Below are positions 1 to 51,439 of a stretch of DNA of 64,000 nucleotides, piece by piece (the first letter of the stretch is position 1; each line of letters opens with the position of its first letter). The notes below the pieces were generated by a model, which saw only the letters and a list, made by a program, of their open reading frames with translations, was not told the origin of the DNA and did no database searches. Source of the DNA: Epilithonimonas lactis (GTDB taxonomy: Bacteria > Bacteroidota > Bacteroidia > Flavobacteriales > Weeksellaceae); the NCBI RefSeq assembly GCF_900110605.1, contig NZ_FOFI01000001.1:806001-870000 (forward strand). The letters run 5' to 3'. A program made the position numbers and the translations under genes.

Positions 1-1095
1 GGTATTGCAGTTTCTTCTTTTTTAATTATTGACAATCTTAGGAAGCAGGAGATTCAGAAGATCAATCTGATTGGTACTGCTTTAAAAGCCTATACTGATG
101 ATGAGATTTCAGCAGATCCTAAGATTCAGGAGTTGTATCTTGCTGTAATGCAGGATAATACCAATCTTCCAATTGTTGTGACAGACAAACATAAAACACC
201 CATTTTCCAAGCCAACATTCCCGAACACATCGAACAAGATTCCCTCAAACTGAAAAATCTGATTCGAAAAATGGAAAATTCCTACGATCCTTTTGTTGTA
301 GAATTGCCGTCTGGACAAAATCAATTCATCTATTACGACAACTCCGATCTTCTCAATTATTTCAGGTTCTATCCGTACCTGATCGCTTTGTTCATCGGAG
401 CTTATCTGATATTTTCCTTTTGGTTCCTGAGAACTCTCAAGAAAACCGACGAAGGCTTTGTTTGGGCTGGTTTGGCTAAGGAAACAGCGCATCAGATCGG
501 AACGCCATTGTCATCAATGATTGGTTGGGTCGAAATTATGAAACTCGAAGATGAAAATGGATTAGGCGTAAAAGAACTCGAAAAAGATGTTGAAAGACTG
601 AAAACCATCTCCGAAAGATTCTCGAAGATCGGATCCATTCCTGCGCTTAATGATCTTGATATCAATGAAACCGTTCAGCAGAATTTCGATTATTTGAAAT
701 CCAGAATTTCTACCAAAGTTGATTTTACTTTAAGAAAAACCTACGAACCAGTTCTGATTCCACATAGTAAAATCCTAATGAGCTGGGTGATCGAAAACCT
801 GATCAAAAATGCTGTCGATGCGATGAAAGGTGAAGGGAAATTAGAACTTTCACTTTACAAGAAAAACAAGAGTGTCTATATCGACGTGACCGACTCTGGA
901 AGCGGAATGACAAAACAACAAGTGAGAAATGCCTTCAAACCGGGATTCTCCACCAAAAAACGTGGTTGGGGATTAGGACTTTCATTGACCAAAAGAGTCG
1001 TGACAGAATATCACAGAGGCGAAGTAAAAATTGCCCATTCTGAAGTGGGGAAAGGAACGACTTTTAGGATTGTTTTGAGGGAAGAGCAGAAATAG
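1..1095 (+). CDS. Sensor histidine kinase, N-terminus cut off by the window edge
   Basis: The reading frame is open from base 1, so the true start lies upstream; 364 residues are visible. The fragment begins in what looks like the end of a first membrane segment, continues with a roughly 100-residue extracytoplasmic sensor part, and has a second membrane segment at about residues 125-144. The kinase core follows: an H-box ETAHQIGTPLSS with the phospho-acceptor His near fragment residue 164, an N-box ENLIKNAVDAM near 265, DSGSGM near 298, and GWGLGLSL near 322. It should autophosphorylate and pass phosphate to a response regulator that is not in this window. The stimulus is unknown. Confidence 0.9.
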   Translation, partial: GIAVSSFLIIDNLRKQEIQKINLIGTALKAYTDDEISADPKIQELYLAVMQDNTNLPIVVTDKHKTPIFQANIPEHIEQDSLKLKNLIRKMENSYDPFVVELPSGQNQFIYYDNSDLLNYFRFYPYLIALFIGAYLIFSFWFLRTLKKTDEGFVWAGLAKETAHQIGTPLSSMIGWVEIMKLEDENGLGVKELEKDVERLKTISERFSKIGSIPALNDLDINETVQQNFDYLKSRISTKVDFTLRKTYEPVLIPHSKILMSWVIENLIKNAVDAMKGEGKLELSLYKKNKSVYIDVTDSGSGMTKQQVRNAFKPGFSTKKRGWGLGLSLTKRVVTEYHRGEVKIAHSEVGKGTTFRIVLREEQK

Positions 1096-2653: not shown

Positions 2654-3964
2654 TCAACTCCTGATCCACTTCCAAATCTCTTTCAAAGTCGCCTTGTTCC
2701 CATACATCAAAATTCCAACTCTATAGATTTTCGACGCAATGAAAACCATTAATAGAGTAGAAGCAATCAACAAAAATATCGACAACAAAATCTCCCAAAG
2801 TGGAACCCCAAACGGAATCCTCGCAATCATCGCAACCGGCGAAGTAAACGGAATGATGGACAACCAAAAAGCCATCGGACCATCCGGATTATTCATAATC
2901 GTGAAACTTCCGTAAAGTCCCAACATCAGCGGAACAACAGCAAACAAAGTGAATTGTTGCGTCTCAGTTTCATTGTCAACCGCACTTCCAATCGCCGCGT
3001 ACATCGAACTGTAAAAGATATATCCGAACAAAAAGAAAAACACAAAAACGCCGATGATTCCAACATAATTCATATCCAAAAGAATGTGCGAAACTTCCGT
3101 CGCAATCTGCTGGATGTCCAGGTTTTTAAGAACGCCTTCTTCTCCAGCCGGAATGTTTTTCTGCATTGCCGAAAATCCTGTATTCAAGAAAATCGCCGCT
3201 GTCACGGTCATTGCAATCCAAACAATAAACTGTGTCAAAGCAACGAGAGTCACACCCAATATTTTCCCCATCATCAGTTCAAATGGTTTCACAGATGAGA
3301 TGATAATTTCCACTACGCGGTTATTTTTCTCTTCCAAAACACTTCGCATCACACGAACGCCGTAGATGATGATGAACATAAACACAACGTACATCAATCC
3401 CATACTCAGCGCGGTTTTGATGCCGAAAGCCAGGTCACTTTCCGGCTTGTCACTTTCCGTCACGTTTTGCGAAATCAATTTGAAATTCTTATCAAGATTC
3501 ACAATTCTGTCTTCCTTGATTCCAAGTTGTTTTATTTTTTCCTTTTTCAGAATATTGCTTAGGTCAGCCGAGACCAAATTTTTCGTATCCATCCCGACCT
3601 TCTTGTTGGTCAACAGTTTTGTCCCGCTTTCCAAAGCATCAAAATTGGTATCTTTCAGTTCCGGGATGATGAGTAAACCGTCGGATCCCTTCAAATCTTT
3701 CAGGTTTTTGACGAGTGCGTTTTCCGTATTTTCAGGCACAAAAGTGTAAGTGATTTCTTTCGTCGATTTCAATTGTCCCGCGAAAAGTCCGCTTTTGTCC
3801 ACCACATCAAAATGATATTCCGCTTCGTTCGCCTTGAACATAAAACCAATCAAAACCCCAAAACCAACCATCAAAAGTGGCGCAAGAATCGTCAGAATAA
3901 TAAAAGATTTCTTCTTGACCTGCGTCAAAAATTCCCTTTTGGTAATTAAATATATATTTTTCAT
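2654..3964 (-). CDS. ABC-2 type transporter permease, NatB-like
   Basis: 436 residues. It has one membrane segment near the N-terminus (about residues 22-45), a large extracytoplasmic domain of about 140 residues, then five or so membrane segments in the C-terminal half. The stretch LEEKNNRVVEIIISSVKP just after the second segment is typical of NatB-type permeases. It lies 82 bases downstream of the ATPase gene on the same strand and should form the membrane half of the exporter. NatAB exports sodium in Bacillus, but relatives move other substrates, so the cargo is open. Confidence 0.9.
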   Translation of the reverse strand: MKNIYLITKREFLTQVKKKSFIILTILAPLLMVGFGVLIGFMFKANEAEYHFDVVDKSGLFAGQLKSTKEITYTFVPENTENALVKNLKDLKGSDGLLIIPELKDTNFDALESGTKLLTNKKVGMDTKNLVSADLSNILKKEKIKQLGIKEDRIVNLDKNFKLISQNVTESDKPESDLAFGIKTALSMGLMYVVFMFIIIYGVRVMRSVLEEKNNRVVEIIISSVKPFELMMGKILGVTLVALTQFIVWIAMTVTAAIFLNTGFSAMQKNIPAGEEGVLKNLDIQQIATEVSHILLDMNYVGIIGVFVFFFLFGYIFYSSMYAAIGSAVDNETETQQFTLFAVVPLMLGLYGSFTIMNNPDGPMAFWLSIIPFTSPVAMIARIPFGVPLWEILLSIFLLIASTLLMVFIASKIYRVGILMYGNKATLKEIWKWIRS

Positions 3965-4952: not shown

Positions 4953-5021
4953 TGATAATCTGTAATTAAAAATGAATAAATAATATTGAGGAGCAAGACG
5001 ATTTCCCCTTCGATTCACCTG

Positions 5022-5085
5022 TCCCACCCGCTTTCCGTTGCAATCTTTTTTTTCAAAAAAGGATTTCCACTACAATCGGGGCTAT
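5022..5085 (+). repeat. Dispersed repeat family A, degenerate copy A5
   Basis: It shares the family A order of CCGTT, CAATCTTTTTT, then AAAAAAGGATTTCCACT and a final TCGGGGCT. The loop between the T run and the A run is almost absent, and the left GCAGC end is lost, so this is the most decayed of the five copies. Other copies are at 14421, 30387, 36499 and 49286. Confidence 0.6.
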
Positions 5086-5251
5086 GTTGAGGTTTCGTCT
5101 TTCCATCGACGATTTTTAAAACCTCACAAAATTAGTTCATTAATCTCAAAAATGTTACAGAAAAACTTTGTAATTGAACTGTTCTTTGTCAGTCCAAAAA
5201 AGTTAATAATCGATACCTGTAATTATTAATAACTTAGTTTTCAACAGTTTG

Positions 5252-15014: not shown

Positions 15015-15860
15015 TTACTTATCCAAAATCCCCCGAATCTTATTCGCATTCGTAATCAATTCTTCCAAATAATCAAAATTCTCCTTTTCCAACGCAGATT
15101 TGAATTTTCTTAGTTGCGTGATATGTTCATTCAAAACGTCCAACACATTTTCTTTGTTCTGACGGAAAATAGGAACCCACATTTCCGGATGTGATTTTGC
15201 CAAACGAACCGTACTGGAAAAACCGGAACTCGCCAGCTGAAAAATCGTGTCCTCCTCGCGTTCTTTTTCCAGAACCGTATTCGCCAAAGCGTAAGAGGTG
15301 ATGTGGGAAATGTGCGAGATGTAAGCGGTGTGAACATCGTGTGCATCGGCATTCATATAGATAGGATGCATTTCCAGATTCTCAATCATTTTTTCAACGA
15401 TTGCCAAAGCATCAGCATCGGAATCTTCTCGGTTGCAGATCACGGCTGCTTTTCCCGCGAAACTTTCTTTGGTCGCAGATTTCGGACCAGAGTTTTCCGT
15501 TCCCCACATTGGGTGAAATGCCACGAATCTTTTTCTGTTCGTATGATCTTTGATAGAATCTACAATTCCAGATTTTGTGGAACCAACGTCCATCACCGTT
15601 TGATTTTCATTGATGAGATCCAAAACCGAAGGCAATATTTTTCTCGCAGAATCTACCGGAATGGCAATGATGATCAAGTCGGAATTCTTCAGGCCGCTTT
15701 CCAGATCTGCTTTTTCATCAATGATCTTTAATTCCAATGCATTGTTGAGATGAGTCTCGTCCTGATCGATTCCGTAAACGAAATCTGTGAATTTTTTATC
15801 TCTCAATTTCAATGCGATGGATCCACCGATCAATCCAGTTCCTATAATGCTAATTTTCAT
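15015..15860 (-). CDS. tyrA: Prephenate dehydrogenase
   Basis: 281 residues, a monofunctional TyrA. It oxidises prephenate to 4-hydroxyphenylpyruvate with NAD(P) in tyrosine synthesis. The nucleotide-binding loop is GTGLIGGSIALKL near residues 7-19. VMDVGSTKSGIVDSI, FHPMWGTENSGP and the helical HISHITSYALA stretch are family signatures. There is no chorismate mutase or ACT domain. The upstream region on the minus strand holds a promoter, a Tyr-rich leader peptide and a terminator hairpin, so expression is probably controlled by tyrosyl-tRNA charging through attenuation. Confidence 0.95.
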   Translation of the reverse strand: MKISIIGTGLIGGSIALKLRDKKFTDFVYGIDQDETHLNNALELKIIDEKADLESGLKNSDLIIIAIPVDSARKILPSVLDLINENQTVMDVGSTKSGIVDSIKDHTNRKRFVAFHPMWGTENSGPKSATKESFAGKAAVICNREDSDADALAIVEKMIENLEMHPIYMNADAHDVHTAYISHISHITSYALANTVLEKEREEDTIFQLASSGFSSTVRLAKSHPEMWVPIFRQNKENVLDVLNEHITQLRKFKSALEKENFDYLEELITNANKIRGILDK

Positions 15861-15880: not shown

Positions 15881-15909
15881 AAAAAACCCCGTCACTAGGA
15901 CGAGGTTTT
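15881..15909 (-). terminator. Attenuator hairpin of the tyrA leader
   Basis: On the minus strand AACCTCGTC pairs with GACGGGGTT (one G-U pair) around a five-base loop and is followed by a T run. It lies between the leader peptide stop (15930) and the tyrA start (15860), the position expected of an amino-acid attenuator. Confidence 0.8.
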
Positions 15910-15929
15910 GATATGGGTACATACGAATC

Positions 15930-15977
15930 CTAATCCTTCTTAAGGGCCAAAATTGCGTAATAATATGTCGTGTTCAT
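15930..15977 (-). CDS. Tyr-rich leader peptide controlling tyrA
   Basis: A 15-codon frame reads MNTTYYYAILALKKD and stops at TAG. Codons 5-7 are three consecutive tyrosine codons (TAT TAT TAC). It lies downstream of a good promoter and about 20 bases upstream of a terminator-like hairpin that precedes the tyrosine-pathway gene tyrA. When charged tRNA-Tyr is scarce, ribosomes should stall on these codons and allow an alternative RNA fold. The antiterminator pairing was not worked out in full. The reading frame and hairpin are seen directly; regulation is inferred. Confidence 0.82.
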   Translation of the reverse strand: MNTTYYYAILALKKD

Positions 15978-15990
15978 TGTTTTCACAGAA

Positions 15991-16021
15991 CGAAGATAGA
16001 CATTAATTCTGAAATTTCAAA
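15991..16021 (-). promoter_or_regulatory. Promoter of the tyr leader-tyrA unit
   Basis: On the minus strand TTTG (16018-16021), a 19-base spacer and TATCTTCG (15991-15998) match the Bacteroidota promoter with one change in the -7 box. It begins just after the antiporter stop codon and 14 bases before the leader peptide start. Confidence 0.65.
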
Positions 16022-16025
16022 TAAA

Positions 16026-18305
16026 TTATGGATTCGAAATAATCAATGTCGATGGAATGTCCGACAGCCAAAGACTTTTGGAATCGATGAGGTTTCTCCA
16101 GCTCTTGCTGCTGATCAACATCAGATCTTGACTTTGCAGGAAATCTTTTTCAATCGTTTTCTCATTGTAAAGCGTAATGTGGTTCGGCGCAATATGTTCG
16201 ATGTTTCTGATCAATTCGCGGATCTCCGTGTTCTTTCTAATTTGTCCAGCAGCATCCAAAATAATCACTTGAGAATCATTGTTATTGATCAGTCGTTTCG
16301 CATATTCAACCAAGAAGAAATCATTTAGTTCAAAAATCGGGATGAAGATCTTGTCTGCACTTTCAAATTTTTTATTCACCATCACACCTACAGGAATATT
16401 CGTTTTGTCAAGAATACTCAGTGTGAAATCGTCAAAAGGCGATGCATTGAAGATATAAGATTTTCCTTTTACAGTGTTCAAAAGTTTCTCAGGATTGATG
16501 ATCTTGGTCGTGAATCCGAGAAGCTTTCCGAGCAAACTTCCTTCGTAGATGGATTTCCCCAGCATCACAAGAAGAAGGTCATAATTGCCTTTGTTTGTAA
16601 TGTTGATGAGGTCGTTTTCGATATCTGTAGAAGCTTTGAAAAGGGTAGTGACTTCCAGTTTCAGTTCATTTGAAGTTTCAATCACGTCTTCAAAGAGTTC
16701 TTTTTCGTAATTTTCAATATCATAGGCGTGAAGCTCATCTACAGGTGCAATGTTCATTGCGGTGATGCTCTTGTTGCCATTCATCTTGTTTGTCAGATTG
16801 TCCGCAAATTTCAATAATGCGCGTCCGGCATTGGGTGTTTCAAAAGATAGAAGGACCTTGTACTTTTCGTCATTCACGTCTTGGTCTTCTTCCAACATTG
16901 ATTTTTTTCCTTTGAAAAGATAATTGATTAAATCCAAAGATGGTCCGGTCATAAATGTTGTGAAAAGTGCCATTATCACCATCATTGCAAACAATTCAGG
17001 TCCCATTACGCCGAGGTCATAACCGATATTAAGAACAATTAATTCAGTAAGTCCTCTTGTGTTCATCAAAGCACCGATGGTGAGACTGTCTTTCCAACTG
17101 ATTCGCAGGAATTTTGCGGTCAACGCACTTCCTATGAATTTTCCGATGACAGCGGTCAGAATGATCAATCCACCGATCTTCCACAGGTGTGGGTCATTAA
17201 GCAAACCAATCTGAGTTCGAAGTCCCGTGAATACGAAGAAAAGTGGAAGCAATAAGACCAAAGCCACATCCTCAACTTTCTCTATAAAGAGATTTCGGAA
17301 TTTCACATTTTCCGGCATGATCGCGCCTGCCATGAATGCACCGAATAATGCGTGAATCCCAATCACTTCCGTTGCGTAAGAGGAGATAATTAACACTAAA
17401 AAGAATACGGCAACCAAAGCTTTGTTGATGAAACCTTTTCCTTTTTGAGATTCGGCAATTCTGGTTAAAAATGGTTTTACCAATTTGATCATTAGAAAAA
17501 CATAGAGAACTGCCATCAAAATCACAAACACAGATCCTGAGAAAGATCCTGCTTTTACAATCGCGATCACGGCCGCCAAAATACACCAAGCCGTGATGTC
17601 ATCTGCTGCAGCACAAGTGATCACGATGGTTCCGATCTTGGTCTTATGAAGGTTCCGCTCTTGTACAATTCTAGCCAAAACCGGAAATGCGGTGATACTC
17701 ATCGCAATTGCAATAAACAAGGCGAATGAACTAAACTGAATGCCTTCCGGCGCAAATTCTTTATAAATGAAATACGAAAGTCCGATTCCCAAAGCAAAAG
17801 GGAAAATGATACTTGCGTGGCTGATGACTACAGCATCATGTGCTTTTTTTCTAAGAACGCTAAGATCCAGTTCCATCCCGACAATGTACATGAAGAGGAT
17901 CAATCCGATCTGACTGAGGAATTGAAGGTTTGGAAGCGATTCTTTCGGGAACATAAACGCAGAAAACTCCGGGAAGTAAAGTCCGACCAACGATGGTCCG
18001 AGCACGATCCCGGCAATCATTTCACCAATAACGGATGGCTGTTTTAGCTTGACACAAATCCACCCAAAAAGTTTGGCCACCATAATGATGGTCACAATCT
18101 GTGCTAACAAAAGCGCCAAAGGATGGTGCAGATTTGTCAGAAAAGAATCGGTGAAGTTTTCCCACATCGTTGCGCCGGTTGCTTTGCTTGGAGCGATGTT
18201 TTCGCCAACTTCCAAAGTTTTTCCTTCGATGAAAAACCAATACATCAAACAGGAAAAGAAGGCAATGGTAAGAACGTAAAAAATAATATTCCTGTACTTT
18301 TTCAT
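16026..18305 (-). CDS. Cation:proton antiporter (CPA2 family) with C-terminal USP-like region
   Basis: 759 residues. An N-terminal segment (residues 5-25) leads into about 12 membrane segments of the Na+/H+ exchanger domain (residues about 60-450). AWCILAAV after CAAADDIT carries the Asp-Asp ion-binding type motif. MNTRGLTELIVLNIG is typical of bacterial CPA2 exchangers. The last 280 residues are soluble and resemble universal stress protein halves, a likely nucleotide- or ligand-binding regulator. It should exchange Na+ or K+ for protons at the inner membrane. A small hairpin lies in its 5' leader. Confidence 0.92.
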   Translation of the reverse strand: MKKYRNIIFYVLTIAFFSCLMYWFFIEGKTLEVGENIAPSKATGATMWENFTDSFLTNLHHPLALLLAQIVTIIMVAKLFGWICVKLKQPSVIGEMIAGIVLGPSLVGLYFPEFSAFMFPKESLPNLQFLSQIGLILFMYIVGMELDLSVLRKKAHDAVVISHASIIFPFALGIGLSYFIYKEFAPEGIQFSSFALFIAIAMSITAFPVLARIVQERNLHKTKIGTIVITCAAADDITAWCILAAVIAIVKAGSFSGSVFVILMAVLYVFLMIKLVKPFLTRIAESQKGKGFINKALVAVFFLVLIISSYATEVIGIHALFGAFMAGAIMPENVKFRNLFIEKVEDVALVLLLPLFFVFTGLRTQIGLLNDPHLWKIGGLIILTAVIGKFIGSALTAKFLRISWKDSLTIGALMNTRGLTELIVLNIGYDLGVMGPELFAMMVIMALFTTFMTGPSLDLINYLFKGKKSMLEEDQDVNDEKYKVLLSFETPNAGRALLKFADNLTNKMNGNKSITAMNIAPVDELHAYDIENYEKELFEDVIETSNELKLEVTTLFKASTDIENDLINITNKGNYDLLLVMLGKSIYEGSLLGKLLGFTTKIINPEKLLNTVKGKSYIFNASPFDDFTLSILDKTNIPVGVMVNKKFESADKIFIPIFELNDFFLVEYAKRLINNNDSQVIILDAAGQIRKNTEIRELIRNIEHIAPNHITLYNEKTIEKDFLQSQDLMLISSKSWRNLIDSKSLWLSDIPSTLIISNP

Positions 18306-45661: not shown

Positions 45662-45733
45662 ATGAATTTAACAATCACAACAACGATTTCTACAACGACT
45701 ACAACAGTATGTCGCGGAAAGGTCTGTATGTGA
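45662..45733 (+). CDS. thrL: Thr-rich leader peptide controlling thrA
   Basis: A 23-codon frame ends at TGA. Nine residues are Thr and two are Ile, concentrated in TITTTISTTTTTV. It is too small for ordinary gene finding. It sits between a consensus promoter and a strong terminator hairpin just before the aspartokinase-homoserine dehydrogenase gene, the same layout as the enterobacterial thr leader. Ribosome stalling at Thr or Ile codons should relieve termination. The peptide and hairpin are seen directly; the regulation is inferred by analogy. Confidence 0.88.
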   Translation: MNLTITTTISTTTTTVCRGKVCM

Positions 45734-45760
45734 AATTGAAAAATAATAACAATATAAAAA

Positions 45761-45794
45761 AGCCTTTCTGAATTTTCCAGAAAGGCTTTTTTTA
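45761..45794 (+). terminator. Attenuator hairpin of the thr leader
   Basis: A perfect 10-bp stem, AGCCTTTCTG (45761-45770) with CAGAAAGGCT (45778-45787), followed by seven T. It lies 22 bases before the thrA start and must be bypassed for thrA expression. Confidence 0.88.
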
Positions 45795-45815
45795 TTTAAA
45801 ATAACTACAATACAA

Positions 45816-48260
45816 ATGAAAGTATTAAAATTTGGAGGAACTTCAGTCGGAAGTTTGGAAGCATTGAAGAATGTAAAATCAATCGTTGAAAAAGAATTCA
45901 ATGAAAATGAACCTTTGATTGTGGTTTGTTCCGCGTTTTCAGGAATTACAAACTCGCTTTTGTTGTCCGCGGAAGAGGCGTTGCTACAAAATGATTTCTC
46001 AGAGATATTGAAAGTCGCAGAAGAAAAACATTATCAAATCATCTCAGGGTTGTTGCCAAGAACTTCTCAGAATCCTTTGTTGATGATGGTCAAAGTGAGT
46101 TTTAATGAGATTGAAGATATTCTTTTCAGTGTCAAAAACTTGGGCGAATTATCAGGCAGAATCAAAGATAGATTGTTGGCTTACGGCGAACAAATGTCCA
46201 GTAAAATCATCGCAACATATCTTCAATCAGAGAATTTCCCTGCGAACTACAAAGACTCGAGAGAACTGATTGTCACAGATTCGAACTTCGGAAATGCGTC
46301 CGTCGATTTCATCAAAACCAATGAAAATCTAAAGAATTGGAATCCTGAAAATCAAATTTATGTAGTAACAGGTTTCATTTCGCAAGATAAAAATCAAGAT
46401 ACGACAACACTTGGAAGAGGCGGTTCGGATTATACTTCAGCGATTTTAGGCTCAGGTTTGAGAGCTAAAGAAATCCAGATTTGGACAGACGTTGATGGTT
46501 TTATGACAGCTGACCCAAGATTGGTAAAGAATGCTTTTTCTCAACCGGAACTCAGTTATCAGGAAGCGATGGAAATGTCTTATTTCGGCGCAAAAGTCAT
46601 CTATCCGCCAACGATGATTCCGGCTATCGAAAGTCAAATTCCGATTTATATCAAGAATACTTTCAACCCGGAAAATCCAGGAACTTTGATTCAACAAAAA
46701 TCCGAAGTTTCAAAAGGTCTAATCAAGGGAATTGTCTCCATTGAGAAAACTTGTCTCGTCAATATCACCGGAAACGGAATGATTGGAATGAAAGGTTTCA
46801 GCGGAAGATTGTTCAATGCTTTGGCAAAATATGACGTCAATGTCATCTTGATTACGCAGGCGAGTTCGGAACACAGCATTTCTTTTGTGGTCAATTTTAA
46901 TGATGAGAAAAAAGCCGAAAAAGCCATCCGGGAAGAATTTGAATTTGAAATCAATGCTAACAAAATCGATGAACCGCAATTCGATAATGAGCTCAGTATT
47001 CTCTCAGTTGTCGGCGAGAATATGAAAAAAACGAGAGGCATCAGCGGTAAATTTTTTAGTGCTTTAGGCAAAAATGGAATTAATATTATCGCCATTGCAC
47101 AAGGTTCTTCCGAGCTCAATATTTCTGCTGTCATTGAAAGAAATGAACTCTCAAAAGCTTTGAATGTTGTCCACGATTCGCTGTTACTTTCGCCAGTTAA
47201 AACCTTCAATGTGATGTTCGCTGGAACAGGAAATATTGGTAAAGAACTCTTCAAACAACTGAAAAGAGAAGAAGAAAATCTGGAGAAAAATCACCAAATC
47301 AAAATCAATGTTATAGGCGTAACCAACAGCCGACAAATGATTATTTCAGAAAATGAAACTTTGAATTTTGACTTAAATGAAATTTTAGATAAAAATTTAG
47401 AAAATTCTAATTTAAAATATTTTATAAATTCTATTTCAAGTAAAAATTTACCTAATTTGGTTTTCGTAGATAATACTTCGAGTGAAGATGTGGTGAGCTA
47501 TTATCCACAGTTTTTTGAGAATAATATTTCAATTGTGACTTGCAACAAAAAAGGAAATTCTTCGGCTTACGAGCAGTACAGCAAGTTCAAAAGATTGGCA
47601 AAAAAAAACAACGTCAGTTTCCTATATGAAACAAATGTTGGCGCCGGACTTCCAATAATCAAAACGTTGAACGACCTTTGGATTTCTGGAGACGAAATTC
47701 TAAAAATCGAAGCCATTTTATCAGGAACCATTTCTTACATTTTCAATAATTATGTTGGCGATAAGACCTTTGCAGAGGTCGTAAGAACAGCGCAAGAATT
47801 AGGTTACACAGAACCCGACCCAAGAGACGATTTGAACGGAATGGATTTCTCCAGAAAGATGCTGATTCTTGGAAGAGAAATTGGCTTACCTTTGGAAATG
47901 TCCGATGTCAACATCAAAGATTTTCTTCCGGAAGCTTGCCTCAAAGCAGATTCGATTCCGAGTTTTTATGCAGAGTTGGAAAAGAACGAACCTTACTTTT
48001 CATCATTCAAAAATGAAGCAGAAAGTTCTGGTCAAAAACTTAGACTAATCGGAATTTTGGAAGACGGAAAAATCAACATCGAAGTCAAAATGGTTGATGC
48101 CAATCACGCATTCTACGGACTTTCAGGAAGCGATAATATCATTTCATTCACCACTTCAAGGTACAAAAACACGCCATTGGTGGTCAAAGGTCCAGGCGCC
48201 GGCGCAGAAGTTACCGCCGCAGGTGTTTTCGCAGATTTGGTAAGAGTTACGGCTCAATAA
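45816..48260 (+). CDS. thrA: Bifunctional aspartokinase / homoserine dehydrogenase
   Basis: 814 residues. The N-terminal kinase (about 1-300) starts KVLKFGGTSVGS and has TTLGRGGSDYTSAILG. Two ACT-type regulatory parts (about 315-455) follow, with GMIGMKGFSGRLFNALAKY and MKKTRGISGKFFSAL. The dehydrogenase domain starts with the NAD(P) loop VMFAGTGNIGKELF near 470; its signature GTISYIFNN and DPRDDLNGMDFSRKMLILG are complete. The protein makes aspartyl phosphate and later homoserine. The ACT parts suggest feedback control by threonine. The operon continues with thrB and thrC. Confidence 0.97.
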   Translation: MKVLKFGGTSVGSLEALKNVKSIVEKEFNENEPLIVVCSAFSGITNSLLLSAEEALLQNDFSEILKVAEEKHYQIISGLLPRTSQNPLLMMVKVSFNEIEDILFSVKNLGELSGRIKDRLLAYGEQMSSKIIATYLQSENFPANYKDSRELIVTDSNFGNASVDFIKTNENLKNWNPENQIYVVTGFISQDKNQDTTTLGRGGSDYTSAILGSGLRAKEIQIWTDVDGFMTADPRLVKNAFSQPELSYQEAMEMSYFGAKVIYPPTMIPAIESQIPIYIKNTFNPENPGTLIQQKSEVSKGLIKGIVSIEKTCLVNITGNGMIGMKGFSGRLFNALAKYDVNVILITQASSEHSISFVVNFNDEKKAEKAIREEFEFEINANKIDEPQFDNELSILSVVGENMKKTRGISGKFFSALGKNGINIIAIAQGSSELNISAVIERNELSKALNVVHDSLLLSPVKTFNVMFAGTGNIGKELFKQLKREEENLEKNHQIKINVIGVTNSRQMIISENETLNFDLNEILDKNLENSNLKYFINSISSKNLPNLVFVDNTSSEDVVSYYPQFFENNISIVTCNKKGNSSAYEQYSKFKRLAKKNNVSFLYETNVGAGLPIIKTLNDLWISGDEILKIEAILSGTISYIFNNYVGDKTFAEVVRTAQELGYTEPDPRDDLNGMDFSRKMLILGREIGLPLEMSDVNIKDFLPEACLKADSIPSFYAELEKNEPYFSSFKNEAESSGQKLRLIGILEDGKINIEVKMVDANHAFYGLSGSDNIISFTTSRYKNTPLVVKGPGAGAEVTAAGVFADLVRVTAQ

Positions 48261-48349: not shown

Positions 48350-49279
48350 ATGGATTCTATAAAAGTTTTCGCTCCCGCAACAGTCGCCAACGTCGTTTGT
48401 GGCTACGATATTCTCGGTTTCGCCATCGATGAACCAGGCGACGAAATCATCCTGACAAAAAACGATTTCAACAAAATCACCATCACAAAAATCGAAGGCG
48501 ACGGCGGAAAACTCCCCAAAAACCCAGAGAAAAATGTAGTTTCCCACGTCATCCGATTGTTCTTGGAAAAGGTAAATTCAACCCAAGGAATCGATATCGA
48601 GCTGTACAAAAAAATGCCACTCAACAGCGGAATGGGTTCCAGCGCAGCGAGCAGCGTAGCGGCTTTGGTCGCCATTAATGAATTGATGGGAAAGCCTTTT
48701 TCTCGTCAAGAATTGTTGCCACTCGCAATGGAAGGAGAACGAATCGCCTGCGGAAATGCCCACGCAGACAACGTTGCGCCGGCACTTTTGGGCGGAATGG
48801 TTTTGGTCAGAAGTTATGAACCTTTAGATGCTTTTAAATTGCCTTATCCAAAGGGTTTGTCGGTAGTTTCCGTTCATCCGCACGTAGACGTTCCGACAGG
48901 CGAAGCGAGAAAAATCATCAAGGAAAGAATCAGCCTGAAATCTGCCGTTCAGCAATGGGGAAATATCGCAGGATTGGTCGCCGGATTTTGCACCAACGAC
49001 CTTGGTTTGGTCAGCCGAAGTCTCGAGGACGTCATCATAGAGCCCGTTCGCGCGATGTTGATTCCATATTTTTACGAGATGAAACAACTCGCTTTGGACA
49101 ATGGCGCGATTGGTTTTGGGATTTCCGGTTCCGGTCCGTCGGTGTTTGCTTTGTGTGAAAAGAAAGATATTGCAGAAGTTATTTCATACAAAATCAAAGA
49201 ATTACTCAACCAAAAAAATATAGAAAGCGAATCATTCGTCACAAAAATCAACGACGAAGGCGCACGAGTGATTAATTAA
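48350..49279 (+). CDS. thrB: Homoserine kinase
   Basis: 309 residues, a GHMP kinase. It phosphorylates homoserine with ATP. It begins KVFAPATVANVVCGYDILG, the phosphate loop is PLNSGMGSSAASSVAAL near residues 90-106, and GFGISGSGPSVFALCE is the third GHMP motif. It lies 89 bases after thrA, separated by an ATCAAYY heptamer tract. Confidence 0.96.
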   Translation: MDSIKVFAPATVANVVCGYDILGFAIDEPGDEIILTKNDFNKITITKIEGDGGKLPKNPEKNVVSHVIRLFLEKVNSTQGIDIELYKKMPLNSGMGSSAASSVAALVAINELMGKPFSRQELLPLAMEGERIACGNAHADNVAPALLGGMVLVRSYEPLDAFKLPYPKGLSVVSVHPHVDVPTGEARKIIKERISLKSAVQQWGNIAGLVAGFCTNDLGLVSRSLEDVIIEPVRAMLIPYFYEMKQLALDNGAIGFGISGSGPSVFALCEKKDIAEVISYKIKELLNQKNIESESFVTKINDEGARVIN

Positions 49280-49285
49280 AATTAT

Positions 49286-49392
49286 TTGGGCAGCTATTTC
49301 CGCCTTCCGTTCCCAATCTTTTTTGCCGACGATTTCCCTTTCAAAAGAAATTTAGTCAAAGCAAAAAAGGATTTCCACTCAAGTCGGGCTGC
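49286..49392 (+). repeat. Dispersed repeat family A, copy A4 (long-loop type)
   Basis: Opens TTGGGCAGC and closes TCGGGCTGC. The arms are CAATCTTTTTTGC and GCAAAAAAGGATTTCC, and the loop of about 40 bases has GATTTCCCTTTCAAAAG. It begins six bases after the thrB stop codon. Confidence 0.82.
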
Positions 49393-49432
49393 AGATTCGT
49401 CGTTAAATCAAGATTTGTCCTGAAAACCAATA

Positions 49433-49650: not shown

Positions 49651-50946
49651 ATGAAATACATATCAACAAGAAAACACGAAGAAACCAACATCAAAAAAGC
49701 CATTTTAAAAGGTTTGGCAGATGACGGCGGACTTTTTATGCCCGAATATATTCCGCAACTTGATGCTGGGTTTTTTGAAAATCTACCGAATCTTAGCTTG
49801 CAAGAAATCGGTTTCCAAGTAGCAAAAGAATTTCTCGGCGAATCCATTTCCGATGACAATTTGAAAGAAATCATCGATGAAGTTTTGAACTTCGAAATTC
49901 CGGATGTGAAAATCACGGAGAATATTTATTCCCTGGAATTGTTCCACGGTCCGACGATGGCTTTCAAAGATGTTGGCGCTCGATTTATGGCGAGAATGAT
50001 GGCTTATTTCTCAGAAGGAAAACCGATGAAGGTTGTTGTTGCGACTTCTGGCGACACGGGAAGTGCGGTTGCGTCTGGATTTTTCGATGTTGCGGGAATT
50101 GAGGTTTATATTCTTTATCCAAAAGGAAAAGTGAGTCCGTTGCAGGAAAAACAGCTGACAACTTGGGGCGGAAATATCAAAGCGTTGGAAATCGATGGCA
50201 CTTTTGACGATTGTCAGGCTTTGGCAAAACAAATTCTGTCCGACGAAGAATTGAATCAGAAATTCACTTTGACGTCAGCAAACAGTATTAATATTGCGAG
50301 ATTGATTCCGCAATCATTCTATTATTTTTGGGCATTTGCTCAATTAGAAAAATTAGGAAAACCAATCGTGTTTTCTGTTCCGAGCGGGAATTTTGGAAAC
50401 TTAACCGCTGGACTTTTTGCCAAGAAAATGGGATTGCCGATTTATCAATTCATTGCTTCAACCAATGCAAATGATGTGGTTCCAAATTATCTTGAAACCG
50501 GAAATTACGAAACAAAACCTTCAAAACAAACCATCAGCAACGCAATGGACGTCGGAAATCCAAGCAATTTTGAAAGAATGAAAAGTCTTTTCAATGATGA
50601 TGTTTCGGAATTCAAAAAAGAAATCGAGTCGTATTCTTTTTCGGATGAAGCAACAAAAGAGACGATGATAAAAGTGAAGAACGATTTCGGTTATACTTTG
50701 GACCCGCACGGCGCGGTGGCTTATTTGGGATTGGAAAAGTATTCAGAAAAATCAAGTGCAGATTTTGTTGGTGTTCTATTGGAAACCGCTCATCCTGCAA
50801 AGTTTGTGGAAGTTGTGGAAGATGTTTTAAAAACGAAAATCGAAATCCCTGAAAAACTGGAAGCTTTCAACAAAAAGGAAAAACAATCGTTGGAATTTCC
50901 AGAGGATTTTGAAGTGGTGAAACAATTTTTGATGGAGGAGAAGTAA
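49651..50946 (+). CDS. thrC: Threonine synthase
   Basis: 431 residues, PLP-dependent. It converts phosphohomoserine to threonine. The PLP lysine lies in FHGPTMAFKDVGARF near residue 112. ATSGDTGSAVASGF is the phosphate-binding turn, and FSVPSGNFGNLTAG follows later. The N-terminus YISTRKHEETNIKKA and GLADDGGLFMPE are as in ThrC of the E. coli type. It lies 371 bases after thrB, with repeats A4, B3, C2 and a heptamer tract in the gap, so it may be read from a separate promoter or by read-through. Confidence 0.96.
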   Translation: MKYISTRKHEETNIKKAILKGLADDGGLFMPEYIPQLDAGFFENLPNLSLQEIGFQVAKEFLGESISDDNLKEIIDEVLNFEIPDVKITENIYSLELFHGPTMAFKDVGARFMARMMAYFSEGKPMKVVVATSGDTGSAVASGFFDVAGIEVYILYPKGKVSPLQEKQLTTWGGNIKALEIDGTFDDCQALAKQILSDEELNQKFTLTSANSINIARLIPQSFYYFWAFAQLEKLGKPIVFSVPSGNFGNLTAGLFAKKMGLPIYQFIASTNANDVVPNYLETGNYETKPSKQTISNAMDVGNPSNFERMKSLFNDDVSEFKKEIESYSFSDEATKETMIKVKNDFGYTLDPHGAVAYLGLEKYSEKSSADFVGVLLETAHPAKFVEVVEDVLKTKIEIPEKLEAFNKKEKQSLEFPEDFEVVKQFLMEEK

Positions 50947-51123: not shown

Positions 51124-51131
51124 TATCTTTG
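51124..51131 (+). promoter_or_regulatory. -7 promoter element (TATCTTTG) of rpsO
   Basis: An exact TAnnTTTG match, 38 bases before the rpsO start. T-rich sequence at about 51100-51106 may act as the -33 region. Confidence 0.5.
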
Positions 51132-51169
51132 CACCCGAATTACATAATAATCATTTAAATAATATTGGA

Positions 51170-51439
51170 ATGTATCTAACAACAGAAAAAAAGTCAGAAA
51201 TTTTCGCAAAGCACGGAAAATCTGCAAATGACACAGGAAGCGCTGAAGGACAGATTGCTCTATTCACTTTTAGAATCAACCACCTTTCTCAGCACTTGAA
51301 AGCTAACCGTCACGATTTTGCTACTGAGAGGTCTCTAGTGAAATTGGTAGGTAAGAGAAAATCTCTTCTTGATTACTTGAAGAAGAAAGAAATCTCTAGA
51401 TACAGAGCTATCATCGCTGAATTGGGAATCAGAAAATAA
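51170..51439 (+). CDS. rpsO: 30S ribosomal protein S15
   Basis: 89 residues, the exact family length. GSAEGQIALFTFRINHLSQH, DFATERSLVKLVGKRKSLL and YLKKKEISRYRAIIAELGIR are universal S15 signatures. It binds 16S rRNA early in 30S assembly. In other bacteria S15 represses its own mRNA; no such structure was worked out here. It has its own promoter and a terminator. Confidence 0.98.
   Translation: MYLTTEKKSEIFAKHGKSANDTGSAEGQIALFTFRINHLSQHLKANRHDFATERSLVKLVGKRKSLLDYLKKKEISRYRAIIAELGIRK

Follow-up and report, generated by a model that had tools for sequence, protein, structure and literature searches.

A tyrosine-codon leader before tyrA in Epilithonimonas lactis and related genera, probably a ribosome-mediated transcription attenuator

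The single prephenate dehydrogenase gene (tyrA) of Epilithonimonas lactis is preceded by a compact element made of a promoter box, a short frame with three consecutive tyrosine codons and an intrinsic terminator with its alternative helices, and this element is very probably a tyrosine-specific, ribosome-mediated transcription attenuator of the trp type. It lies in the stretch of 64,000 nucleotides that we analysed and refer to as the window (assembly GCF_900110605.1, contig NZ_FOFI01000001.1, positions 806,001 to 870,000). A previous sequence-only reading of this DNA had proposed a tyrosine leader-peptide attenuator, and the comparison with relatives supports that proposal: 79 of the 80 loci read in four genera have conserved the frame with its Tyr run as well as the hairpin, two of the RNA helices covary and a third one has conserved pairing. 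Stalling of the ribosome and a response to tyrosine are what such an anatomy would predict. The coordinates of the features are collected in Table 1. Loci are designated by our own numbers (L008 and the like) and literature cited by PMC number is drawn on as extracts.

Table 1. Features of the tyrA leader and of the threonine genes, in coordinates of the window.
Feature	Position	Strand	Basis
-33 element TTTG, 19 nt from the -7 box	16018..16021	-	read from sequence
-7 box TATCTTCG (TAnnTTNG)	15991..15998	-	read from sequence
Leader ORF, most likely 18 codons from GTG (VKTMNTTYYYAILALKKD, then stop)	15930..15986	-	comparison of relatives
Three Tyr codons, TAT TAT TAC	15957..15965	-	YYY in 74/75 unique leaders
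Region 1: covers the third Tyr codon and those after it; partner of region 2	15947..15959	-	fold, covariation
Region 2: spans the stop codon of the leader; can pair either with region 1 (via 15933-15922) or with region 3 (as AGGATTAGG, 15937-15929)	15922..15937	-	fold, covariation, pairing count
Region 3 CCTCGTCCT: serves as 3' strand of the antiterminator and contributes to the 5' arm of the terminator	15897..15905	-	fold, pairing count
Intrinsic terminator stem-loop (regions 3:4), 11-bp stem, then T run	15883..15909	-	terminator scan, covariation
tyrA, prephenate dehydrogenase, putative controlled gene	15015..15860	-	profile matches
thrA	45816..48260	+	downstream of Thr/Ile leader
thrB	48350..49279	+	downstream of Thr/Ile leader
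thrC	49651..50946	+	downstream of Thr/Ile leader

The identity of the downstream gene, already named in the sequence-only reading, was confirmed by a score of 369.1 bits against NF006307 (cut-off 295) together with matches to Pfam PDH_N and PDH_C, and it is the single match across the 4.09 Mb genome. The terminator hairpin that had been seen on the tyrA strand is also there, with its T run ending 22 nt short of the tyrA start codon; the segment 15400-16400 contains three terminator-like sites, compared with 0.4 in shuffles. On the other side of the element, and on the same strand, lies a gene (16026-18305) with a Na_H_Exchanger match that codes for a cation/proton antiporter. The promoter described before as consensus-like stood as a box, and its type had to be changed. 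Scored as a plain sigma-70 promoter, 16021-15991 reaches 9 out of 12, but the segment 15400-16400 holds four such sites versus 2.7 in shuffles and this candidate was discarded. TTTG, which we take to be the -33 element of Bacteroidota, forms with the box the arrangement TTTG-N19-TATCTTCG, and the promoter of the leader fits the Bacteroidota type. The -7 box of the phylum has been given as TAnnTTTG (PMC9723704).

The Tyr run proposed for the leader was found to be correct, and the start of its supposed 15-codon frame was moved upstream. Relatives provided 78 leaders, 75 after removal of three duplicates (L061 was excluded by hand, its Tyr triplet being within another gene), and in these 75 unique leaders the position equivalent to 15986 is occupied by GTG or ATG, with frames of 13, 15, 17 or 18 codons. 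Of the 61 that have 18 codons, 56 begin with GTG and five with ATG, whereas at the fourth codon, which is ATG 15977 here, only 5 of the 61 have ATG. Because codon 1 is conserved as GTG or ATG across the relatives and the ATG at codon 4 is not, GTG 15986 is the most likely start of the frame, and ATG 15977, which lies 9 nt downstream of it, was rejected. The distance from the -7 box to the start codon is 4 nt in 73 of the 75 and 5 nt in the other two, a spacing that is partly built in because the script picking the starts favoured in-frame candidates 2-6 nt past a box. In Flavobacterium psychrophilum the box occupies positions -12 to -5 (PMC9723704), which would make the opening purine of the start codon the predicted +1. 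Given this spacing, the leader transcript is probably leaderless. As a reference, leaderless messengers are 5.5% of the mRNAs examined in F. psychrophilum (PMC9723704), and in four other leaders inspected by eye (those before hisG in L213 and L214 and the aromatic ones of L180 and L187) the box is 18-29 nt from the ATG.

Outside Thr7-Tyr-Tyr-Tyr and Ile12 the peptide is highly variable. Codons 2-6 change from leader to leader whereas the Tyr run is kept in all unique leaders except that of L008, where it is Tyr-Tyr-Asp (YYD), and the differences fall about equally on the three codon positions (6719, 9882 and 9329), i.e., there is no third-position excess. This variability, with lengths going from 13 to 18 codons, argues against a leader that mainly yields a functional peptide or a small RNA acting elsewhere, as described for the trp leader of Sinorhizobium meliloti, with attenuation being secondary; we consider this very unlikely, even if a terminated leader RNA that starts with its own start codon is the situation described for rnTrpL (PMC7298713). 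By itself a Tyr triplet is nothing unusual: TAYTAYTAY occurs eight times in the window (2.1 expected). When the 64 kb were scanned for a -7 box, a frame of 8-35 codons with three identical consecutive residues and a terminator, criteria that were chosen after seeing the Tyr element, two matches came out, this element and a Thr leader before thrA; the same scan on 40 dinucleotide shuffles of the 64 kb found one match in total (mean 0.025).

The structural evidence comes from a covariance model for which 66 of the 75 unique leaders were used and with which 76 loci were realigned (10 weak opposite-strand matches are excluded from the covariation counts). On this alignment, which favours the structure because it is fitted to it, helices 1:2 and 3:4 were paired in 86.4% of the cells (at most 58.8% when slid), both sides had changed in 98 cells (30.1 in shuffles and 7-36 slid) and the covariation score was 0.232 (0.145 shuffled, at most 0.118 slid), while the number of further pair types (35) was not exceptional, being reached by 54 of 500 shuffles. 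Taken separately, the terminator 3:4 is paired in 99.9% of the cells of the 76 aligned relatives, with both-side changes at three of its nine pairs, and helix 1:2 in 78.6%, with both-side changes at 8 of 16 pairs and the two lowest pairs rarely formed (6/76 and 6/63). Compared with dinucleotide shuffles, the 1:2 region had a mean z of -2.24 and was below -1 in 69 of the 75 leaders.

The sequence-only reading had suggested folding the leader in search of an antiterminator, and one is present at the leader stop codon, with eight of its nine pairs formed in 57 leaders and seven in the remaining 18. The mean of 7.76 pairs contrasts with 5.77 (sd 0.08) when the leader region is shuffled, and the first pair is seen as A-U, G-U, G-C and C-G. 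The stop codon lies wholly within the helix in 67 of the 75; in the other eight the helix begins 1-6 nt past the first base of the stop codon. RNAalifold on the MAFFT alignment detected the terminator only, because the regions 2 of the different genera are out of register there, and helix 2:3 was therefore counted gap-free by script and on the model-fitted alignment. In the latter, 85.8% of the cells are paired (at most 54.1% slid), although the sixth pair does not form in 69 of 76. Covariation in 2:3 is weak because region 3 hardly varies: five both-side changes were found versus 4.4 in shuffles, with a score reached by one of 500. The nascent 2:3 segment folds slightly better than its shuffles (mean z -0.94, 38 of 75 below -1).

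A conserved RNA structure next to a tyrosine gene would also suit an RNA that senses tyrosine or uncharged tRNA directly, as a riboswitch or T-box, the frame being incidental. However, no Rfam family reaches its gathering score at the element, T-box included (the T-box covariance model has no match at gathering score within the window), and the start, stop and Tyr codons hold a single frame while the sequence of helix 1:2 has changed in the lineages L101, L109 and L118. We find direct sensing extremely improbable, and T-boxes and other Rfam elements were set aside as candidates. Elsewhere in the window there are matches to the Flavo-1 RNA (Rfam RF01705) at 5020-5087 (-) and 49293-49394 (-), the latter just past thrB, and to the S15-Flavobacteria ribosomal protein leader (RF03161) at 51124-51172 (+).

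From the anatomy, conservation, covariation and placement of the element we infer the following course of events for the attenuator. The polymerase would start at or beside the first base of the GTG, and a ribosome would load on the 5' end of the RNA and follow it. With ample charged tRNA-Tyr, the ribosome would clear the three Tyr codons and cover the stop codon in region 2, leaving regions 3 and 4 to pair and transcription to terminate after about 105 nt. With scarce tyrosyl-tRNA it would stall at the Tyr codons, covering region 1, so that regions 2 and 3 would pair before region 4 emerges, no terminator would form and tyrA would be transcribed. In the absence of translation the 1:2 hairpin would form, making termination the default. 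The minimum-energy folds of the 75 unique leaders were obtained for four states. The terminator is present in 73 of the 75 folds in the untranslated state and in all 75 with the ribosome at the stop codon. When the ribosome is at the second Tyr codon and the RNA extends up to region 3, this region is paired upstream in 75 of 75, and with the full RNA the terminator is found in 46, including the leader of the window, and region 3 is paired upstream in 29. For the leader of the window the energies were -10.4 kcal/mol for the 1:2 stretch, -10.8 for the nascent antiterminator state and -14.0 for the terminator. As the terminator is still favoured in the 46 folds with full RNA, the switch would need co-transcriptional timing, the choice being made before region 4 is. 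The classical attenuation scheme likewise decides before region 4 is transcribed.

As to the distribution, 163 of 197 genomes of the family had a tyrA match, and the DNA before tyrA was inspected in 150 of these 163 with a single locus for each genome (23 from the same genus, seven more from the search and 120 fetched). The element was found before tyrA at 23/23 loci of Epilithonimonas (g1), 49/50 of Chryseobacterium (g20), 5/5 of g23 and 2/2 of Soonwooa (g32). The total includes L023, added by hand since its broken T run was missed by the script but a model match was present, and L024, a weak second match of the tyrA search, was left uncounted. The only exception in Chryseobacterium, L102, carries a decayed copy at 93-208 (-) of 66.7 bits, in which the start codon is GTA and the Tyr run has been lost, and it keeps tyrA and a terminator-like hairpin. 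At none of the 70 loci of 13 other Weeksellaceae genera was the element found, and the model search had nothing with E < 1 in the approximately 0.7 kb upstream, a range from which a leader placed further up an operon would escape. Thus, the placement before a single tyrA, highlighted previously as notable for a flavobacterium, holds for four genera and is not a trait of flavobacteria at large.

Scanning 84,980 species genomes with a sequence pattern yielded 114 matches, 112 of them with tyrA at most 330 nt downstream, counts that are partly built in and from which variants are missing because the pattern requires the Tyr codons and the terminator core. All were in Chryseobacterium, Epilithonimonas, Soonwooa or records named Flavobacteriaceae or Weeksellaceae bacterium (two share one bin), and YYY in a frame starting near a -7 box was present in 112, the other two being too close to the edge of the locus. 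As to the pair of matches without tyrA, L260 runs off the locus and in L347 none was found in the 8 kb locus. In L347 (Chryseobacterium oranimense) the element is at 3447-3529 of the reverse complement, and past the terminator lie opposite-strand frames that by eye resemble integrase and restriction enzyme genes, as might result from the insertion of an island. Searching 395 genomes from across the phylum with the model under strict filters gave matches in eight, one each, all g1 or g20. The E. lactis genome itself has one strong match (108.4 bits); the second best (L223, 34.5 bits, E 0.04) is without a Tyr frame.

The surroundings of these loci also bear on whether the hairpin merely terminates the upstream antiporter gene, the Tyr frame being a coincidence. 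The antiporter is on the same strand, it ends 116 nt before the hairpin and Tyr triplets are, as said above, common enough in the window. However, the promoter box sits between the antiporter gene and the hairpin, the frame, the Tyr codons and helix 1:2 are conserved, and the upstream gene varies among the 79 loci, with a piece of the antiporter at 34, another small gene at 10, both at one and neither at 34 (many of the loci cover just about 0.6 kb upstream). It is tyrA, and not the upstream gene, that the element accompanies, and we dropped the antiporter terminator as an explanation that is hardly credible.

The tyrosine attenuator has company in the same genome and order. In the window, a -7 box, a Thr/Ile-rich leader frame MNLTITTTISTTTTTVCRGKVCM and a long terminator are found at 45662-45815 (+) before thrA, in what looks like a threonine attenuator, and this architecture of the Tyr element is shared as well by a His leader before hisG of the E. 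lactis genome (L213). A His-run leader followed by a terminator was located before hisG by script at six of nine loci, and by eye in L213 and L217; in L221 the His run is interrupted. The His-run leader peptides before hisG (L213, L214-L220), such as MSIQLMHHHHHFHVQAGR, come with terminators, and an identical hairpin GATGAACGATTTTATCGTTCATT with a T tail appears in L213, L214 and L217 before a gene upstream of hisG. Not every aromatic unit has a leader, since pheA in 23 loci of the same genus has no terminator-like site outside genes and hence no leader by the criteria used. Outside the family, we took 20 hand-picked genomes of the order (18 f3, presumably Flavobacteriaceae, one f4 and one f12) and inspected the region before tyrA over as much as about 5 kb. 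A Phe/Tyr-rich leader (15 detected by script and four by eye) and a terminator precede a block ending in tyrA in 19 of them (L170-L174 and L176-L189), the exception being L175 (f12), and 12 of the 19 leaders contain Trp too. In L180 and L187 the two genes that lie between leader and tyrA code for a prephenate dehydratase and for a class I/II aminotransferase; in the other 17 loci the genes of the block were assigned from protein starts and order. With leaders for aromatic, Thr/Ile and His units, attenuation is therefore commonly used here, with the Tyr element as the member for tyrosine. We lean, with some reserve, towards a wider picture: a strictly leaderless and mostly GUG-initiated attenuator for tyrosine only, with the ribosome loading on the nascent 5' end without Shine-Dalgarno, inside a Flavobacteriales attenuation network whose leader codons would follow the content of the transcription unit, i.e., Phe and Tyr (often Trp) before pheA-aminotransferase-tyrA, Tyr alone before a lone tyrA, Thr/Ile before thrABC and His before hisG.

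The control known for tyrosine genes is mainly that by a repressor (TyrR) or by T-boxes. In a survey of 2005, tyrosine was assigned T-boxes, whereas the attenuators named were those of histidine, threonine and phenylalanine (PMC1262725). With an attenuator based on Tyr codons in Bacteroidota, leader-peptide control would extend to another amino acid. The phylum is described as having an unusual primary sigma factor and a translation initiation unlike that by Shine-Dalgarno (PMC9723704), and leaderless GUG initiation, if confirmed, would offer a compact test of how ribosomes load and keep pace with RNA polymerase. The covariance model can also serve to annotate the element in about a hundred species.

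The mechanism is of a known kind, and its tyrosine version in flavobacteria appears not to have been described: in the extracts of the open-licence PMC literature we came across no account of a tyrosine leader preceding tyrA in this group. In the classical trpL, pheL and hisL systems, a short leader in which the regulated amino acid occurs as a run, alternative helices 1:2, 2:3 and 3:4 and a terminator stand before the biosynthetic gene. The Tyr element resembles these proteobacterial leaders in the run, in the three alternative helices and in the intrinsic terminator before the gene, and differs from them in the amino acid, the Bacteroidota host, the -7 box promoter and the mostly GTG start at the predicted +1. 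Attenuation by Tyr-tRNA has also been put forward for aroF in enterobacteria and Shewanella, where the gene is tabulated as an "attenuator sensing tyr-tRNA" with reference to the E. coli aroF-tyrA work (PMC2659441); however, for E. coli it is termed hypothesised (PMC8632094), the phylum is another one and no Tyr-run leader peptide is given in the extracts of these sources. The aroR leader of Corynebacterium glutamicum (Phe-Tyr-Phe) likewise has aromatic codons before an aromatic-pathway gene, aroF, but is reviewed as responding to Phe and not to Tyr (PMC11802643), unlike the Tyr element, whose run is Tyr only and whose gene is tyrA. The uORFC-13-1 motif before aroF in Acholeplasma, a candidate leader frame with a terminator (PMC8632094), differs in its Phe-coding U run, its phylum and a gene that is not tyrA. 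Leaderless attenuators do have precedents, as the transcript begins at the leader start codon in LeuL, TrpL1 and IlvL of Streptomyces lividans (PMC8079986), where GTG starts 32.2% of the leaderless transcripts, and in trpL of S. meliloti (PMC7298713), although these belong to other phyla and other amino acids and their peptides are listed with M in the extracts. Among the near cases there is also another flavobacterium, F. psychrophilum, for which "strong clues" to leader-peptide attenuation, the same mechanism as suggested here, have been reported before amino-acid operons (PMC9723704).
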